Shown: in pieces, positions 9,674-28,606 of the stretch
Layout: each line of letters opens with the position of its first letter
How positions within the stretch are numbered: the first letter of the stretch is position 1
Origin: a virus
Reading direction: 5' to 3' (one strand)
DNA: 29,096 bases
Virus record (IMG/VR): IMGVR_UViG_3300047481_001519
Location: 1-29,096 of that record
Position numbers and translations under genes: made by a program
The notes under the pieces: generated by a model
What the model saw: only the letters and a program-made list of their open reading frames with translations
What the model was told of the DNA's origin: nothing
Databases searched by the model: none

Positions 9674-10219
9674 ATGACTTACTCGGATTCCTTCACCCAA
9701 ACACAAATGCAGCCCACGATCGCAATGGAGTCCGAGCAAGAGTCGATTCAGCCCGAAATCGAGCAGCCAAAGACAACAGTACAAGGCATGGTCGAAATTT
9801 TAATTGACTATGCCTCGTATTTACACCAGCTTTACGCCCAGTCTCACTTAATTCACTTAAATATTGAAGGACCTCTATTTTTTCCAATCCATGATTTTTT
9901 AAAAGAACAGTACGAAGCTCACATCGTACAGTTCGACAAAACCTCAGAGTTTGTTAGAACATTGGATTACTTAATGCCTATGTGCCATCGCGGACTAACA
10001 CAGGCACATAAAGGGTTTAAACATGTTAAAGATTACGACACCCGTAATATGCTCACTACTTACTTAAAAAATTTAGAAGACGCTGGAATGACAGCAAAAG
10101 ATGTACTGGAATATGCCCGAGATCTTGGAGCAATTGACGTTGAAAACTATATGGCGGAACTTGCGGGAGACATGTTTAAAGCAGCGTGGATGCTTAAATC
10201 GACACTGAGGTCTAAGTAA
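9674..10219 (+). CDS. Dps-like ferritin, 181 aa
   Basis: Residues 37-180 form the four-helix pattern of Dps. The segment HLNIEGPLFFPIHDFLKEQY matches the family's HWNVxGxxFxxLH stretch. H61, H73, D88 and E92 have exactly the spacing of the E. coli Dps ferroxidase residues H51, H63, D78 and E82; the Trp and the second Asp of that site are Leu and Lys here. Dps oxidises and stores iron as a 12-mer and protects DNA from peroxide. The N-terminal 35 residues are a Gln/Glu-rich tail, unlike the basic DNA-binding tails of some Dps proteins. It overlaps the convergent fibre gene by 8 nt. A protective role during infection or in the virion is inferred. Confidence 0.65.
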   Translation: MTYSDSFTQTQMQPTIAMESEQESIQPEIEQPKTTVQGMVEILIDYASYLHQLYAQSHLIHLNIEGPLFFPIHDFLKEQYEAHIVQFDKTSEFVRTLDYLMPMCHRGLTQAHKGFKHVKDYDTRNMLTTYLKNLEDAGMTAKDVLEYARDLGAIDVENYMAELAGDMFKAAWMLKSTLRSK

Positions 10220-17378: not shown

Positions 17379-18494
17379 TCAAACGTTGAACGAGTAGGCA
17401 ACAGTAACGAAGTCAGCGTTTAGAAGCTCGAAACCTGCGTACAGGCTCCAGATCATCATGATGAAACGGCTGAAATCGTCGTTGTTGTTAAGCAGCACTT
17501 GAGCATTGTTACCGCCGATACCGACGCCAACACTCTGAGGGCCGAAGAACATACCGATAGCACTGTCGTACGTAGTCGAAGTACCACCGATAGTTGCCGT
17601 GGCGGTTTGGGAAGGCATGTTGGTGGATTCGAAGAATCGCACACCTTCAAACACAAAACCGGTAGGCATGATGGGTTCGCCAGCCACGAAGGAGGCTTGC
17701 CCAAAACCCTGACCCATGTAGATAGCAGCGTTAGGCTGCATAGCAGACATGAGTGGGTTGATCTGACCGTTGCCGGGGTAGCGAGCCACTTCGCGGAAAT
17801 CGCTGTTCTGACGCAGGTGCATCAGGAACGTGGGGTCGCAAACGCAACGATAGAAACCGTCTTGGTAGGTGGGGGTGTTCCGCTTACGCAGAGACTTCAC
17901 CACGCGGAGAAGGTCATCCTTAACGTCAAACTTGGCTTGCTCTGAGTTGGTGTAGGTTAAAGAACCAACAGCCAAATTCCCGGGGTAGTAGTAACCACCT
18001 TGGGTATCAGAAGATTGACCTTTAGATACAGCTTTCAGGAGTTCATTAATGAACACCCGATCGCGCCAACGACGATAGTCGTCTAGCAGGGTCAAAGAAC
18101 CAATTGATTGGTGGAAAGCAGTAAGATTACCGGTATCTAACAGCAAACGCTGAGCGGTAATTAGTGTCTCACGTGCAATCTTAAATGTACTAGCTTGTGT
18201 AGGATCACTAGGGTCGGCAGGACCGGTATACTCCCGGAGTGTCACCAACACTTTGTCCTTCACGATATTGCGGCTGCTAGCAGTACCGATGGTCTGCTCT
18301 GCAGTACGCTCACGTGACTCTTTGCTTCCAGGGTTTCCCCAGAATCTGTAACGATCAAGCTGCACAGTCTGTCCTGGTTGCTTACTGAAGTCATGAACAA
18401 CTACAGGTTCCGCAGCCATCTCTACAACGTACGCAGGATGCGGACGATAGAGCTCAGCACCGAGCAGCTTCGGAAAATCATTGTCGACGAACAA
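17379..18494 (-). CDS. Probable major capsid protein, 371 aa
   Basis: The gene starts at TTG 18494 with a perfect GGAGG eight bases upstream; no in-frame ATG fits better. The order terminase, portal, scaffold-like, this gene is the standard head module. The sequence has the features of capsid proteins: an N-terminal arm (residues 1-50), a mixed segment with RYRFWGNPGSKESRERTAEQ, a helix IARETLITAQRLLLDTG, and many beta strands late. I did not recognise a specific capsid family; some features recall N4 gp56-like proteins. The GC-rich codon choice and strong ribosome-binding site fit an abundant product. Confidence 0.65.
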   Translation of the reverse strand: MFVDNDFPKLLGAELYRPHPAYVVEMAAEPVVVHDFSKQPGQTVQLDRYRFWGNPGSKESRERTAEQTIGTASSRNIVKDKVLVTLREYTGPADPSDPTQASTFKIARETLITAQRLLLDTGNLTAFHQSIGSLTLLDDYRRWRDRVFINELLKAVSKGQSSDTQGGYYYPGNLAVGSLTYTNSEQAKFDVKDDLLRVVKSLRKRNTPTYQDGFYRCVCDPTFLMHLRQNSDFREVARYPGNGQINPLMSAMQPNAAIYMGQGFGQASFVAGEPIMPTGFVFEGVRFFESTNMPSQTATATIGGTSTTYDSAIGMFFGPQSVGVGIGGNNAQVLLNNNDDFSRFIMMIWSLYAGFELLNADFVTVAYSFNV

Positions 18495-19868: not shown

Positions 19869-20786
19869 TTAAGCGGCGTCTAAGAACAAGAGCTTCTGAC
19901 GGAAAGCGTCAGGGCTCATTTGACTCAGGTAACGCCAAGCTTGCTCGGGATTCTGATTCATGGTCTGGGCGAAACCATTCCACTGAGTGTCAGGATCGTT
20001 GCGAACTACGCCTGCAGAAGCAGGAACAGCAGGCATGTCATAACGAGGTTGATAAGCTGCTTGCTGAGCAGGATAACCAGAGTTATCTGCATCTACTGGA
20101 TACACTTCGGTGAAGAACCGGTTGGTGTAATCAGCTAGTTGATCAGGATCAGTAAGAATATGCTCCATTGCAGCGCCACGTGTGGCGATGGCGTTCATAT
20201 TTTCGTTCTGAGCAATCAGAGCGTCTTCGAGGGTAACAGCATACTGATTAAGGATGCCGGGGGCCTCGATGCCGAAGTGATTAACGACTTGAGCGCTTGC
20301 GGGGCTTAGCTGGGGGGCTTGGCTGCGCCCCGTAGAAGCCTGAGAGGAAGCCTGGGTCGTAGAGACGTTGTTGGAGTAAGTCGGGGCTGCCGTAGGCGCT
20401 TGGTACGCCCATGGTTGGGCCTGTAAAGGCTGACTGTACTGTGGAATAGCCTGTTGCGTCGTCGCGTACTGTGGAGACGGTGCTGTTTGGCTGGGGAGTG
20501 GTGACATCCTGGACACCACCCGCTCCAGGCTGCCCATTGCTGCTTCCCACGGATTGTTCGGGGAGTAAGCGGACGGAGACTGGTTGTACTGGTTGCTGGT
20601 AGAAAGGACCGAACCCTGTGTTGCCTGCGACGGCATTTGGGCTGTAGGTACCGAAGCTACCGCCGGGGTACTGGTTTGCGCCACCCACTGCGGGTAAGCG
20701 GTTGAGCCCTGGTCCATTGCTGGCGCCGCCGAGGGGGCTGCTGCCGCTACCGGGCTCGGGATCGAAGCTTGGATCTGCTGGCTCAT
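19869..20786 (-). CDS. Probable scaffolding or head-assembly protein, 305 aa
   Basis: The position between portal and capsid and the composition suggest a scaffold. Residues 1-165 are Pro/Ala/Gln/Ser-rich and disordered (PSPVAAAAPSAAPAMDQGST), and residues 168-305 contain helices (LNQYAVTLEDALIAQNENMN) ending in the short helix DAFRQKLLFLDAA. The first 168 codons overlap the 3' end of the portal gene in the +1 frame (506 nt). The part beyond the portal stop is certainly coding. The exact start is less certain because the ATG at 20786 has only a weak ribosome-binding site; later ATGs (20717 and beyond) would shorten but not remove the overlap. A terminator follows. Confidence 0.6.
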   Translation of the reverse strand: MSQQIQASIPSPVAAAAPSAAPAMDQGSTAYPQWVAQTSTPAVASVPTAQMPSQATQGSVLSTSNQYNQSPSAYSPNNPWEAAMGSLERVVSRMSPLPSQTAPSPQYATTQQAIPQYSQPLQAQPWAYQAPTAAPTYSNNVSTTQASSQASTGRSQAPQLSPASAQVVNHFGIEAPGILNQYAVTLEDALIAQNENMNAIATRGAAMEHILTDPDQLADYTNRFFTEVYPVDADNSGYPAQQAAYQPRYDMPAVPASAGVVRNDPDTQWNGFAQTMNQNPEQAWRYLSQMSPDAFRQKLLFLDAA

Positions 20787-22515
20787 AGCTACCCGAGTAG
20801 GTTAGTTCTTGCGCGAGGTGGTCAAACGTCCTGTATAACAGGGGCGTTATGTTTAATCTAGGGTCAGCCCCTAAGGGTTGATCCGGGGCGAGAGGATGTG
20901 GCGTTTGCAACATCTGTGATAATAATACTAAAAATTGTTGCATTGCGCTTTGAGTTTGTTGGATCATCCTGAAAGGAAATCCTTTTAACATTTCTTCTCG
21001 CTCAGTATCCGTCTTATCCGGGAATAAATAACGTAAAGCTTCGACACTATCGACCCCTAATTCTTGCAAATTTCGGACAACAATAGACTTTTGGTTTATG
21101 TCGTAGGCCGTGTCCTCATAGACATCGCCTTGGAAGCGGTACGCAACAGTACGATCTCCATCTGGAGGTAAACCAAAAACACCACGTGGGACTGCAGAAG
21201 CTGAAAGCGCTTCTTGCATCATCTGTTTTAGTTTTTGGTCAAACTTTTGCTGTTCTACTTCAAAGCGAATTGTCTCTTCAGATGAATCATCGGCAGCAGG
21301 TTTAGGCTTTTTGAGCTTAACAACAGCGGCAAAACTATCTTTAAAAGTTTCTTCTTGGTGGTAAAGAATCATCTCCAACAACTTACAGAACCCGTACACC
21401 AAGAAACTTTTATTTTTTCTTAGTGCTGTAGCTTGAGCGCGACCCATCAAACCCTTAATTTCTGTGGCAGTGGCACCAGCAGAAACTGAAATTTCATCAA
21501 CACCGCCTAATGCTGTCCGAATTTCTTCACGCAGCATTAAAGCCCATCGGTTCATGTCCCCGTTAACAGGGTCTGGTGTCATGTAACCAACACGATCCGA
21601 AGGCTCGACGTTGGCAATAATTCGAGGGACTCTCAGCCCGCCCATCAAACCACTGGAACCAAAGGGCTCGCTTACTCGTGTCGAGGGGGTATCGCGACCA
21701 GCAAATCCACTTTGACTACTAATTGTTGGACGGAAAGTGCGATCAGAGTCGCTAGCTTCGACAAGATCACTACGAGGACGCGAACTAATAAGTGTCGGAT
21801 TACCAAAAAATTCAATATTTTTAGCAATGTTTGTATTTAAGGTGTCATGAAGAACAATTTGTTCCATAAAAGGATCAAATTCGCCTTCACCAGAAGTGCC
21901 GCTGCTGTCTGGTTTGTTAAGAACCTCAACAGCAGGTATAAAGCCCAGTGTATTTTCCCGTGTATTCTTTGAAGTAACGAGTCCTCCTGGTTCCAGGTCA
22001 AAACTTAACTCTGTATTAGACTCAAATTCAGATATACGTTCTTCCGTAATAGAAATTCGAACATAGCGTTCGTTTAAACCTGCTGTGTCAGAAGGTAAAC
22101 CAATGTTAGAACTACGAATTTTATATTTGTAGATTATTACAACTTCATCTAAGTTTCCGTTTACATCGTGGTAAACACGGTATTGATCTTTAGAGAAAAA
22201 GTATATTTGATACTTTAATTTAGGATCAGGCCGAAAATAAAATAAACCACATCCGTCGATTAAAAAATTACGAATAATCGAAGGAAAACGTATATCGATT
22301 TTATTTAAAGTAATCAAGCTATCTAAAAATTTAGATCTAGCTTTATAAGTGTCTTGTTCGCAATAAAAAGTCAAGCCCTTCTTAATCATCAACAGCGTCA
22401 TTTGCTGGATGTGACTAAGAACGACTAAAGTAGACGCCTGCTTGGATCTATCTTGAGTCCGCGAAGCCTCAAGAATTTCTTGAAAGCGTTGACGGACTCC
22501 GATCTGGTCGGCCAT
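20281..22515 (-). CDS. Portal protein, 744 aa
   Basis: The portal forms the 12-mer ring through which DNA enters the head. The call rests on size, position after the terminase group, and sequence pattern: a helical N-terminus, a wing region with ISITEERISEFESNTELSF, a stretch typical of portal clip/stem regions (EEIRTALGGVDEISVSAGAT then ATEIKGLMGRAQATALRKNK), and a helical crown region near 560-600 (RMIQQTQSAMQQFLVLLSQM). Residues 577-744 are a Gly/Pro/Ser-rich extension ending in KPRKRSSR that most portals lack. It is encoded over the start of the next gene in another frame. Confidence 0.75.
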   Translation of the reverse strand: MADQIGVRQRFQEILEASRTQDRSKQASTLVVLSHIQQMTLLMIKKGLTFYCEQDTYKARSKFLDSLITLNKIDIRFPSIIRNFLIDGCGLFYFRPDPKLKYQIYFFSKDQYRVYHDVNGNLDEVVIIYKYKIRSSNIGLPSDTAGLNERYVRISITEERISEFESNTELSFDLEPGGLVTSKNTRENTLGFIPAVEVLNKPDSSGTSGEGEFDPFMEQIVLHDTLNTNIAKNIEFFGNPTLISSRPRSDLVEASDSDRTFRPTISSQSGFAGRDTPSTRVSEPFGSSGLMGGLRVPRIIANVEPSDRVGYMTPDPVNGDMNRWALMLREEIRTALGGVDEISVSAGATATEIKGLMGRAQATALRKNKSFLVYGFCKLLEMILYHQEETFKDSFAAVVKLKKPKPAADDSSEETIRFEVEQQKFDQKLKQMMQEALSASAVPRGVFGLPPDGDRTVAYRFQGDVYEDTAYDINQKSIVVRNLQELGVDSVEALRYLFPDKTDTEREEMLKGFPFRMIQQTQSAMQQFLVLLSQMLQTPHPLAPDQPLGADPRLNITPLLYRTFDHLAQELTYSGSYEPADPSFDPEPGSGSSPLGGASNGPGLNRLPAVGGANQYPGGSFGTYSPNAVAGNTGFGPFYQQPVQPVSVRLLPEQSVGSSNGQPGAGGVQDVTTPQPNSTVSTVRDDATGYSTVQSAFTGPTMGVPSAYGSPDLLQQRLYDPGFLSGFYGAQPSPPAKPRKRSSR

Positions 22516-22550: not shown

Positions 22551-22703
22551 TTAAGCTTTTTTACCTGCAGCTTTAACTTTTTTAGCTTTCCTCAGAGCTT
22601 CCTTACGCTTCTCCATTTTTTCTTCTTTATCTCCGTGTTTACCCTCGTGCTTTGCCTTATTGGCAAAGTGCTCACGGAGTTGTTCGGGCATCTGGTTAGC
22701 CAT
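22551..22703 (-). CDS. Small Lys-rich phage protein, 50 aa
   Basis: This short gene runs from the ATG at 22703, which overlaps the upstream glycosyltransferase stop by 8 nt, to the TAA at 22551. The peptide begins MANQMPEQLREHFANKAKHE and ends in a Lys/Ala tail (LRKAKKVKAAGKKA). Tiny proteins with a P-x-x-L-x-x-x-F start and a basic tail are common just before phage portal genes; function is unknown. Confidence 0.65.
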   Translation of the reverse strand: MANQMPEQLREHFANKAKHEGKHGDKEEKMEKRKEALRKAKKVKAAGKKA

Positions 22704-23538
22704 CGGGAAGCAGATAATTTCTTACTCTATCTAGTTTAAACAACTCTGGCGGTAATAGGTCATGTGGGTACGCTTGTAAAATATGATCTTTTCGACCTAA
22801 AGGATCTGTACTTCCCGGTAAAGCTTTATAAGAATCTAAAAAGTCTAACATTTCTTGGCTGTAGGCAGGAGCATGTGCGTTAGGGATATCGTCGTAGCAA
22901 TGAGAAAACGATGTGAGTTTTCGTTTCATCCGAGCTGAGTCACCCATCCAAGAAAAATGCCAACCGCAATCGCAATCCCCCACAACAAGGCCATTGTCCT
23001 TCATTCGGATTTGCGAAGGTGTTTCTTCTAGGTGATCGTATAAAACCACGGTGCCGCAAGTCCAGTTATTTGGGGGTTTGGAAGGATCACCTTTCGGATC
23101 AATAACTCTAAGATCTGCCCTCCCGTAAAACATAGGCATCGACAGACGTACACACCGGTCTGGATTCGCTTTGGCAATTTCGACAGCTTGTAAAACCGCC
23201 TCCGGCTTCGGTATTTCATCGACATCACTAAAGAAAAAGACGGAATCTGGTGGAGTTAAACGCATCCCCACACCGAGAGCGTCGCGTTGTGCATATTCCC
23301 GTACCCATGGATTAGGAGCTACTTCTTTAGAAGGCAACTCAACGTGAAGAACTTGTATTTTTTCTTCAGGTAAACCTAGTTCTCGAATCGTATCAAGACA
23401 AGTAAAGGGTTTTGGGTCCCCTTTAAACGTCAAATTTCCATCCGTAATGATAAAGCCGTCAACAATATCCTTTAAAAGATTTACCCTTAGTTCAAGGAGT
23501 TCTTTTTCGTCAAAATATAAAAAACAATCGTAGAGCAC
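22696..23538 (-). CDS. GT17-type glycosyltransferase, 280 aa
   Basis: The start is GTG at 23538. The opening YDCFLYFDEKELLELRVNLL and the later VDGFIITDGNLTFKGDPKP match the N-terminal signature of glycosyltransferase family 17 (N-acetylglucosaminyltransferase-like). The metal/nucleotide-sugar motif is SDVDEIP at 104-110. Cys and His residues near GDCDCGWHFSW are also typical of the family. It probably transfers a sugar to a phage protein, to DNA or to a host glycan; the acceptor is unknown. It lies between small head genes and the portal group, 8 nt overlapping the next gene. Confidence 0.7.
   Translation of the reverse strand: MLYDCFLYFDEKELLELRVNLLKDIVDGFIITDGNLTFKGDPKPFTCLDTIRELGLPEEKIQVLHVELPSKEVAPNPWVREYAQRDALGVGMRLTPPDSVFFFSDVDEIPKPEAVLQAVEIAKANPDRCVRLSMPMFYGRADLRVIDPKGDPSKPPNNWTCGTVVLYDHLEETPSQIRMKDNGLVVGDCDCGWHFSWMGDSARMKRKLTSFSHCYDDIPNAHAPAYSQEMLDFLDSYKALPGSTDPLGRKDHILQAYPHDLLPPELFKLDRVRNYLLPDG
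22730..22738 (-). promoter_or_regulatory. Shared upstream motif TAAACTAGA (copy 3)
   Basis: The same 9-mer as at 1369 and 2750, here inside the 3' end of the glycosyltransferase gene and 27 nt before the ATG at 22703. Confidence 0.25.
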
Positions 23539-26074: not shown

Positions 26075-28606
26075 TTAGTACTCTATTGAATAATTGCCTC
26101 GCCTTTGTAAATAAGTTATTAAATGCGTGTATGCGTCTAACAGGTCGTCGTGCGACGTTGCCCCCACATTGATAATCTGATCAAACAACGCATCAAATTT
26201 TCTATATCTGTTAAACACAATTTTTTTATTTTCTAGCAAACCTAGCGTCCCTCTAAAACGAGCTATTTTATCTCCTCTAAAACCGTTAACTTCATGAATA
26301 TGTAAATTACTCAACCCCCGCTCATTTAACAAAACTCTTCTAAGGTCCGCCGCTAAACTCGCTTGGTAAGCAACTGACTCAACTACCAGCGTAACCGTAG
26401 AATAAGTCGGAAAATACGTATCGTTTTGAAAAGATAAGATTCCCCATTCAAGTAGCATATCGCATAGCAAATCTATTTTTTCTAGATTTCCAATAGACCG
26501 ACATTGGTGAGAATCAATAATGAAGTATTTGTCTTTAAGCCTTCCGCCTAAAACAAAAGCTGTATAGTCGCTGGTTTCATTTCTACTTGCGGATAAATCA
26601 ATACCGATAGCCAGCGAATCAAATTCAGTTTCAACTTCAGCTCGAACAAGCAAGTCTGGAGAAACAATTAAATCCGTGGTTAACACCGGTTGTTGCTGGT
26701 ACTGGAAAGCAAATGCCACAGGGTCAAGTTCTTTCTGACCGAGTAAGTACTGAACACTCCACTGCTCAGGCCAATAACTTACGGGGTTGCCTTGATTGTC
26801 GTAAGTGACAGCTTCTTGTGTCACTTGTTTCCAATTTTTTTCCGGCGAAAACATTGTTTTATGTATATCTAACGGGTGAAAACGTGTACCTAAACAAATA
26901 GCTCTACCCCCTTCAAAAATAATTGGTGCGATAACAGATGACCAGTTGTTGTTCATTTCATCTCTAATAGCAGGGTTTCGTATATCCGCGCTGCTTTTGA
27001 TGGGGTCGTCGATGAAACAGTTGCTTACAACAAATCCATTCGCAATAAAATTATGATCTGGATGGTCTATTTCAAGGTCATAGACAATGTGCGTTCCTCC
27101 GCTAATTTTTTCAACTCCGGAAACGGTGAGGGTCTCCCAGCTTTGTCTGTAATCTGATGGTGAGCCACATGACACTGACGGCAAATCGTTATAAGATTGC
27201 AAAGAATGTTGTTTGACCGGTCGTGATCTATGTGATGAACACACAGGTTTGTTCGCACTGTCCCGTCTTTTGTAGATAACTTCTTCTCCTTCGTATTGCA
27301 ACCGACACAGATGAAACTGTCCCGATTTAAAACTATCTTCCTCAGTTTTTTGAAGTCTCCTATATAACCCCCATGCTGGTAATTTGGGTTGTCCACACCG
27401 GTCATTTTTTTGGAATGATTTAAATCTGCACACTGGCGAGAACAAAACTGTGTCGTATGCGATGTTGGGCGAAACCTTTTGTTGCAATACAGACACACCT
27501 GAGGTTTTAAAATTTGCTTCGCCTGCCCCGCACAAGTCCGAGAACAACACAGAATCTTTTGATCGGTGCTTAATCTCTGAGCTAAACGGGAAGACATAAC
27601 CGTGAATATCTCCTGACAGCAGGGGCATTGAATCTCTACTTGAAATTTTCCTAGTTTTTGCCAACAAGTTGTACAGATTCTTTGTGTGCGTTGTTTTTCC
27701 TGACCGCAACTTAAACAAACTTTTAGTTGATTCGCAGGCGGATACTCCGATAAGGGTTTGCCCTGTACTAATATCTCCCGCCCATTCGTACCCTTGGTCT
27801 GTCGTAAGGAAAGGATGCTCGGGAGTTGCGGAAATATAACGGTTATCTGTTGTTCTAATTCGAACAATTTTTGAGGAACAACGCCGTGTAGCTGCTGCCA
27901 CGTCGCTCCAATCAATTTGATGTGTTTTTGAGTTTCTGACAGCAATTTGGAAGCGTCCTGGGTCTGCATATATTTTTTTAATTGGCTGTTCGCCTTGATC
28001 TGTCAAGATTAGTGTATCGCCCGTAAGACACAAATGTGCGCGTTTTGAGGTAATTGATCCTCTAAGACCTGCAGCACGTAGTGTGAATTCTTCGTCACCT
28101 ACTCTAGGGATACCTGCGTATTCAAAATCAATAGACCAACCAACGTCACTTTGCATACCTGGTTTAAGCCTGCAATTAGGAAATATTTTTTTAAACTCAA
28201 CTGAGTCAACAATTTGTTTGATGATTCGACTTTTAGGAATAGCAGTAGCAATGTTGTAAGAAATATAAATAATTTGAAGGGGCATCTTTGCTGCTGTATG
28301 ACGCCCGATACACCACGCAGTGAACATATTGAGCACTGTGCTTTTCGCTGATCCTCTGGGACTTAATATATCAAGGTTTGACCCTGCTATATCTAATAAG
28401 TACTTATTGCTTTCGTTTGTTATCAAGTGTGTATACCACTCCAACATATGTCTTGCTGGAGGTTTATCTAAAAGAGTACAAAACGTCTGAAAGTCACCCG
28501 CTGCTTTGGTGTAAATAGAATTCTCTCTTGTGCTCGAATCTTCAACAGCGCGAACAGCATTTAACTGAGCCCGGCGACGATAAGCAAAAGTTTCCCGGCT
28601 AGGCAT
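26075..28606 (-). CDS. terL: Terminase large subunit interrupted by an intein (843-aa precursor, 506-aa mature)
   Basis: TerL cuts and pumps DNA into the prohead. Visible motifs are Walker A SPRGSAKST at 82-90, Walker B RAHL-CFIDDP (D533, D534) split by the intein, and the RuvC-like nuclease acids GIDLSAS (D670), VVESVAY (E743) and HDDLLDA (D820/D821/D824). Removing residues 193-529 joins HL to CFIDD and gives a normal 506-aa terminase. Without splicing, the ATPase strand is broken and the enzyme should be inactive. The start is the ATG at 28606, back to back with the plus-strand glycosyltransferase gene (54-nt gap). Confidence 0.9.
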   Translation of the reverse strand: MPSRETFAYRRRAQLNAVRAVEDSSTRENSIYTKAAGDFQTFCTLLDKPPARHMLEWYTHLITNESNKYLLDIAGSNLDILSPRGSAKSTVLNMFTAWCIGRHTAAKMPLQIIYISYNIATAIPKSRIIKQIVDSVEFKKIFPNCRLKPGMQSDVGWSIDFEYAGIPRVGDEEFTLRAAGLRGSITSKRAHLCLTGDTLILTDQGEQPIKKIYADPGRFQIAVRNSKTHQIDWSDVAAATRRCSSKIVRIRTTDNRYISATPEHPFLTTDQGYEWAGDISTGQTLIGVSACESTKSLFKLRSGKTTHTKNLYNLLAKTRKISSRDSMPLLSGDIHGYVFPFSSEIKHRSKDSVLFSDLCGAGEANFKTSGVSVLQQKVSPNIAYDTVLFSPVCRFKSFQKNDRCGQPKLPAWGLYRRLQKTEEDSFKSGQFHLCRLQYEGEEVIYKRRDSANKPVCSSHRSRPVKQHSLQSYNDLPSVSCGSPSDYRQSWETLTVSGVEKISGGTHIVYDLEIDHPDHNFIANGFVVSNCFIDDPIKSSADIRNPAIRDEMNNNWSSVIAPIIFEGGRAICLGTRFHPLDIHKTMFSPEKNWKQVTQEAVTYDNQGNPVSYWPEQWSVQYLLGQKELDPVAFAFQYQQQPVLTTDLIVSPDLLVRAEVETEFDSLAIGIDLSASRNETSDYTAFVLGGRLKDKYFIIDSHQCRSIGNLEKIDLLCDMLLEWGILSFQNDTYFPTYSTVTLVVESVAYQASLAADLRRVLLNERGLSNLHIHEVNGFRGDKIARFRGTLGLLENKKIVFNRYRKFDALFDQIINVGATSHDDLLDAYTHLITYLQRRGNYSIEY
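27020..28030 (-). other. Intein in terL Walker B site (337 aa)
   Basis: The intein is CLTGDTLILTDQGEQPIKK... to ...NFIANGFVVSN, followed by Cys as the first C-extein residue. Block A has C1; block B is ATPEHPF (T69, H72); block F is VYDLEIDHPDHNF; block G ends VVSN with the terminal Asn and +1 Cys. The usual penultimate His is Ser336. The Hint splicing domain occupies about residues 1-100 and 298-337. The roughly 190 residues between are Ser/Lys/Cys-rich, with no LAGLIDADG or HNH motif in this frame. They coincide with the HNH protein read in the +1 frame. Confidence 0.9.
27067..27969 (-). CDS. HNH homing endonuclease nested out of frame in the intein, 300 aa
   Basis: The frame lies wholly inside the intein coding region, +1 relative to terL. 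Residues 83-272 read as a real protein: zinc pairs CLSC/CTTC (85-102), CPCC...CCSRTC (115-146) and CLYCNKRF...CSRQC (159-180), a GVDNPNYQHGG motif (191-201), then the HNH core CVGC...LCVHHIDHD, NNILCNL, CRQCHVAHH (221-271). The catalytic residues are probably H246, N258 and H267 or H271. Residues 1-80 overlap the intein splicing domain and look like a shadow, so translation may start later. No ATG, GTG or TTG exists between residues 36 and 124, and ATG 27969 has no strong ribosome-binding site. Its likely role is to cut intein-less terL and drive homing. Confidence 0.75.
   Translation of the reverse strand: MQTQDASKLLSETQKHIKLIGATWQQLHGVVPQKLFELEQQITVIFPQLPSILSLRQTKGTNGREILVQGKPLSEYPPANQLKVCLSCGQEKQRTQRICTTCWQKLGKFQVEIQCPCCQEIFTVMSSRLAQRLSTDQKILCCSRTCAGQAKQILKPQVCLYCNKRFRPTSHTTQFCSRQCADLNHSKKMTGVDNPNYQHGGYIGDFKKLRKIVLNRDSFICVGCNTKEKKLSTKDGTVRTNLCVHHIDHDRSNNILCNLITICRQCHVAHHQITDKAGRPSPFPELKKLAEERTLSMTLK

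Follow-up and report, generated by a model that had tools for sequence, protein, structure and literature searches.

Comparison of related viral sequences indicates that the end of the portal gene in the DNA studied here, at 20281–20786, is a true dual-coding region in which both frames are coding, the second frame belonging to an open reading frame, ORF X (hereafter X), that lies out of frame on the same strand. Our explanation as a whole is a dual-coding overlap that is conserved among relatives, an X that is started internally and an X that is most likely the scaffold; the disorder and the helices of the two products are predicted, and the scaffold role is one that we infer. We give this explanation a probability of roughly 0.72. 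The window, that is, the whole stretch analysed, is 29,096 nt long, and its features that bear on the overlap are as follows.

26075–28606, minus strand: terminase large subunit gene, interrupted by an intein; head-gene context
20281–22515, minus strand: portal gene, 744 aa, assigned from PHROG profile matches and Foldseek
20788–22515, minus strand: portal residues 1–576, the folded core predicted by AlphaFold2, with its last predicted helix at residues 557–572
20281–20786, minus strand: 506-nt overlap, encoding portal residues 577–744 and X residues 1–168
20784–20786, minus strand: X start codon, ATG, flanked by the portal codons TCG and TAT in 81 of 81 lineage A loci
19869–20786, minus strand: ORF X, scaffold-like, 305 aa, in the +1 frame relative to portal and conserved across all lineages
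19869–20280, minus strand: X residues 169–305, the conserved helical C-terminal part, which starts at the portal stop
17379–18494, minus strand: major capsid protein (MCP) gene, downstream of X (PHROG_1357, E = 7e-23)

Overlap and selection on both frames

The original prediction described a 506-nt overlap in which portal residues 577–744 and the first 168 residues of a scaffold-like protein are read from the same DNA. Its length and residue ranges proved exact: the two genes lie on the same strand, X is in the +1 frame and neither frame contains a stop. The two segments also differ in composition as proposed, the portal tail of lineage A (defined below) being 43% Gly/Pro/Ser and the overlap part of its X 61% Pro/Ala/Gln/Ser. 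Fewer stops are expected in the portal tail given its GC content of 62%. When its codons were reshuffled synonymously, an open X frame survived in 0.9–3.3% of trials with only the window sequence, and in 0–0.5% of trials with two of three relatives tested. Because reshuffling of one sequence is only suggestive, it is the comparison across relatives that decides on the X frame.

Scans of viral and genome contigs yielded 551 loci, 366 of which have distinct DNA with a complete portal end. They form five lineages, A (window-like), B (S-EIV1-like), C, D and E, which together make up a widespread family of cyanophage-like viruses, with portal identity between lineages as low as ~40%. In 365 of the 366 distinct relatives, the +1 frame is free of stops over at least 400 nt ahead of the portal stop and continues beyond it; a separate count gave 319 of 319. 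Median overlap lengths, counted from the first start codon, are 506 nt in A, 602 nt in B, 491 nt in both C and D, and 527 nt in E. Only L471 departs from this pattern: an indel lies near the edge of its overlap, on the inner side, and beyond it a normal portal tail and a normal X both resume in shifted frames, which suggests an assembly error or a recent mutation. The original prediction had named a portal stop near residue 577 in relatives as evidence against itself; none of the relatives has one. The scans of viral and genome contigs found no relatives lacking the overlap that could serve as an outgroup, plasmid records yielded no match, and among phage records only Synechococcus phage S-EIV1 matched, for portal, X and MCP alike. 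Judged from this distribution, the overlap is ancient, spanning five lineages and very divergent viruses.

Synonymous-site conservation in both frames across relatives had been proposed as a check, and synonymous variation is indeed suppressed in the overlap for portal and X. Where the amino acid is unchanged, the portal synonymous difference falls at the X start, in A (41 sequences) from 0.605 to 0.223 and in B (45 sequences) from 0.524 to 0.146, and the X synonymous difference climbs past the portal stop from 0.249 to 0.547 in A and from 0.245 to 0.448 in B. Portal third-position divergence in A drops from 0.31 to 0.05. With changes counted by their effect in both frames, the ratios were 0.22 and 0.38 for portal (dNN/dSN) and 0.20 and 0.22 for X (dNN/dNS), with all 95% intervals below 0.6. 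Both products, X residues 1–168 included, are under purifying selection (ratios <0.4 in both frames).

An open frame that arose by chance was also considered; it is ruled out by the codon reshuffling, the synonymous suppression and the conservation in 365 of 366 relatives taken together.

The suppression is confined to the overlap, except for portal in B and E, where it also covers ~96 codons upstream of the X start. Over these ~290 nt (portal codons about −96 to 0), synonymous variation in B and E is 0.11–0.41 versus 0.5–0.6; the depression is much weaker in A and D. No conserved additional reading frame was found in the depressed ~290 nt. In B, D and E, the last 150 nt before the X start show a consensus RNA structure signal, though a weak one (z about −3 versus simple shuffles).

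As to which frame was overprinted on the other, codon usage in the portal frame is slightly closer to that of the non-overlap parts of both genes in B–E, not in A, and so leans slightly towards the portal frame as the older one in B–E. Codon usage is not decisive here; between-lineage conservation is slightly higher for X (0.305) than for portal (0.269).

Predicted products and the role of X

The portal gene, placed between the terminase large subunit gene and the capsid genes, matches a PHROG head and packaging profile (PHROG_20475, E = 7e-161) and the PHROG_64 portal profile (E = 4e-7). Its identity as a portal was borne out by agreement of the fold with solved portal structures: the best Foldseek matches were portal proteins, among them those of PhiV-1, 80alpha/SaPI1, T7 (gp8), SU10 and the cyanophages P-SCSP1u and Pan3, with E = 1e-9 and a probability of 1.00 for the top matches. 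The portal core ends at about residue 572, and AlphaFold2 predicts disorder from residue 573 on; X starts at portal residue 577, just past the end of the core. The PHROG_64 profile has 547 positions, about the length of the portal core alone, which suggests that the tail is a lineage-specific addition.

X is predicted to be disordered to about residue 160 save for a helix at residues 79–91, NPWEAAMGSLERV (AlphaFold2, a model of low overall confidence, mean pLDDT 43). This helix corresponds to the NPWEAA motif, the part of the overlap best conserved across lineages. Further helices are predicted at residues 162–225, with a short helical C-terminus at 265–300 (pLDDT about 65–80, in a model whose overall mean is 43). 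Consistent with the original prediction, then, the portal tail and the overlap part of X are both predicted to be largely disordered. In A and C and in most loci of D and E, the HFGxEAP domain, a conserved domain of X, starts 1–4 codons after the portal stop; in B the stop lies 11–33 codons beyond the start of that domain. In these models the overlap is essentially disordered sequence over disordered sequence, with the folded parts outside it, and the overlap would be tolerated because both overlapped segments are disordered and the folded parts lie on either side. With hundreds of portal/X sequences at hand, the proposal that overlapping genes can evolve more readily when their products are disordered can be put to the test.

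Among loci of A, B, D and E that have enough downstream DNA, 102 of 103 carry X upstream of the MCP gene; in lineage C, the MCP was not matched in the three loci examined. Given its place between portal and MCP and its predicted architecture, a scaffolding protein is the best reading, and X is likely to be the capsid scaffolding protein. Sequence searches of families and of the PDB found no relative of X in PHROGs, Pfam or PDB. X has the gene position of a tailed-phage scaffold and no detectable similarity in sequence to any known family of scaffolds; it is position and predicted architecture that speak for the scaffold role.

It is possible, though rather unlikely, that the dual coding is real and X is instead an internal virion protein, a decoration or assembly-chaperone protein or a packaging accessory. 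The lack of a family match leaves room for such a role, and in lineage A one of three more small genes between X and the MCP gene (57, 60 and 271 aa) could share the scaffolding job. These small genes, however, have no matches in B, D or E, whereas every lineage tested has X between portal and MCP, and the size of X, its predicted disorder and its predicted helical C-terminus suit a scaffold.

In our explanation, ribosomes translating portal continue 168 residues beyond the folded core, and each portal subunit gains a Gly/Pro/Ser-rich tail predicted to be disordered, with a basic end. Separate ribosomes initiate in the +1 frame at a start of their own within the portal gene, yielding an X with a Pro/Ala/Gln-rich N-terminal half, predicted to be mostly disordered, and a conserved C-terminal half, predicted to be helical, that is encoded past the portal stop. 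X would most likely act as the scaffold, for which a gene between portal and MCP and a partly disordered, partly helical product are to be expected. The portal C-terminus, which lies within the overlap, is basic and predicted to be disordered. Portal C-termini generally face the capsid interior, so the tail would sit where the scaffold is, and a contact between the two is plausible. That the portal tail and the scaffold N-terminus bind each other in the procapsid, with the portal nucleating scaffold assembly, is a more doubtful proposal; if true, shared coding would tie together the evolution of the two partners and the stoichiometry of their translation.

A glycosyltransferase family 17 gene (22696–23538, minus strand; Pfam E = 7e-16) sits between terminase and portal in A and had no matches in the other lineages, and a ferritin-like (Dps-type) gene (9674–10219, plus strand; Pfam E = 4e-11) is on the strand opposite the head genes. 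The terminase intein, missing from many relatives, wholly contains a 300-aa ORF in a different frame (27067–27969, minus strand). This ORF is Cys-rich, has weak HNH_3 and zinc-ribbon matches, and is conserved, with its relative frame unchanged, in L052 (64%), L096 (60%), S-EIV1 (L081, 57%), L331 (44%) and L305 (36%); it looks like a homing endonuclease gene that is dual-coded with its own intein. Two intein copies (L013 and L018) match the nested ORF at its ends only (residues 2–75 and 211–299), as if the middle had been deleted.

The internal start of X

The first start codon of X is invariant within four lineages, being ATG in every A, B and E locus and GTG in every D locus; lineage C has 75 ATG and 4 GTG. 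In B, D and E it is preceded by a Shine–Dalgarno sequence that is formed by portal Lys-Glu codons and is invariant or nearly so, the start signals reading AAAAGGAGATGAGTT-ATG in B, AAGGAGTTAAGTTACA-GTG in D and AAAGAGGTAACCT-ATG in E. The portal Lys-Glu codons of lineage B are AAG-GAG in 81 of 81 loci; elsewhere AAG accounts for 34% of Lys and GAG for 33% of Glu. In A, the start sits four codons further down than in B, D and E. No clear Shine–Dalgarno was seen at the X start in A, the window's own lineage, and the motif is mostly absent there in C. Sequence comparison places the start of X translation inside the portal gene.

We consider it very improbable that X is made as a portal–X fusion by +1 ribosomal frameshifting. 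The +1 frame of X and its overlap of some 500 nt with the portal end mean that a shift at any point of the overlap would produce a fusion, and A and C are without a strong Shine–Dalgarno. Yet the start codon is at the same place in every lineage, the Shine–Dalgarno is invariant in B, D and E, and the X frame has a stop 6–18 nt upstream of the start in A and B, which argues against a fusion as the main route; a frameshift site would need no start codon, Shine–Dalgarno or upstream stop, so all three count against this explanation.

A real X that begins after the portal stop, as in the S-EIV1 annotation (AHV82225.1, 134 aa), with an upstream frame kept open merely by a GC-rich tail (62% GC) in which stops are less frequent, can be dismissed almost entirely: synonymous variation is suppressed in both frames within the overlap, X residues 1–168 are under purifying selection, the internal start and its Shine–Dalgarno are invariant, and after the portal stop, where the original prediction said that a start would tell against it, there is no conserved Shine–Dalgarno-led start, post-stop starts being preceded by Shine–Dalgarno-like sequences in only 13 of 366 relatives.

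Known overlapping genes and annotation of the isolate

In phage lambda, the scaffold Nu3 is nested in the protease gene C and has an internal in-frame start; similar internal starts of scaffolds are known. Portal/X resembles C/Nu3 in that a scaffold-type protein starts inside another head gene by internal initiation; it differs in that Nu3 is in frame and shares sequence with its host protein, whereas X, in the +1 frame, is not an in-frame nested scaffold of the Nu3 type and has no sequence in common with portal. The Rz/Rz1 spanin genes of lambda-like phages overlap on the same strand in the +1 frame, with an internal Shine–Dalgarno. Like portal and X, they are two functional phage genes overlapping out of frame on one strand, but they are short, fully nested lysis genes, whereas portal and X are head-morphogenesis genes with a 500–640-nt terminal overlap of segments predicted to be disordered.

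Terminal overlaps have been described, and disorder in the overlapping products has been proposed to relieve constraint, in a review that deals mainly with eukaryotic viruses under 30 kb (PMC8227390). Portal/X shares the terminal type of overlap and the predicted disorder with those small viruses, but belongs to a tailed dsDNA phage with relatives of about 80 kb. No report of an out-of-frame overlap between portal and scaffold was found in the literature searched, most subscription journals lying outside its scope, and among the head-morphogenesis genes of tailed phages, long overlaps of this out-of-frame kind seem to be rare.

S-EIV1 (KJ410740; host Synechococcus sp. PCCC-A2c) is the only isolate found. 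It has the same genes in the same frame relation, a 554-nt overlap and a strong Shine–Dalgarno ahead of an internal ATG at about position 59287; its portal is about 41–42% and its X about 34% identical to those of the window. In its record, X appears only as the 134-aa coding sequence (CDS) after the portal stop and portal is labelled hypothetical, so that the dual use of this DNA was overlooked in annotating the only cultured relative. Annotation truncates overlapping genes: X is 134 aa long in the only isolate's record and is missing from the family libraries searched. At another locus of the same record, the MCP gene of S-EIV1 (KJ410740.1, 60859–61986) is intact and 68% identical to window positions 17379–18494, and an antisense CDS (60784–61545) and a truncated CDS (61540–62010) are annotated there instead.
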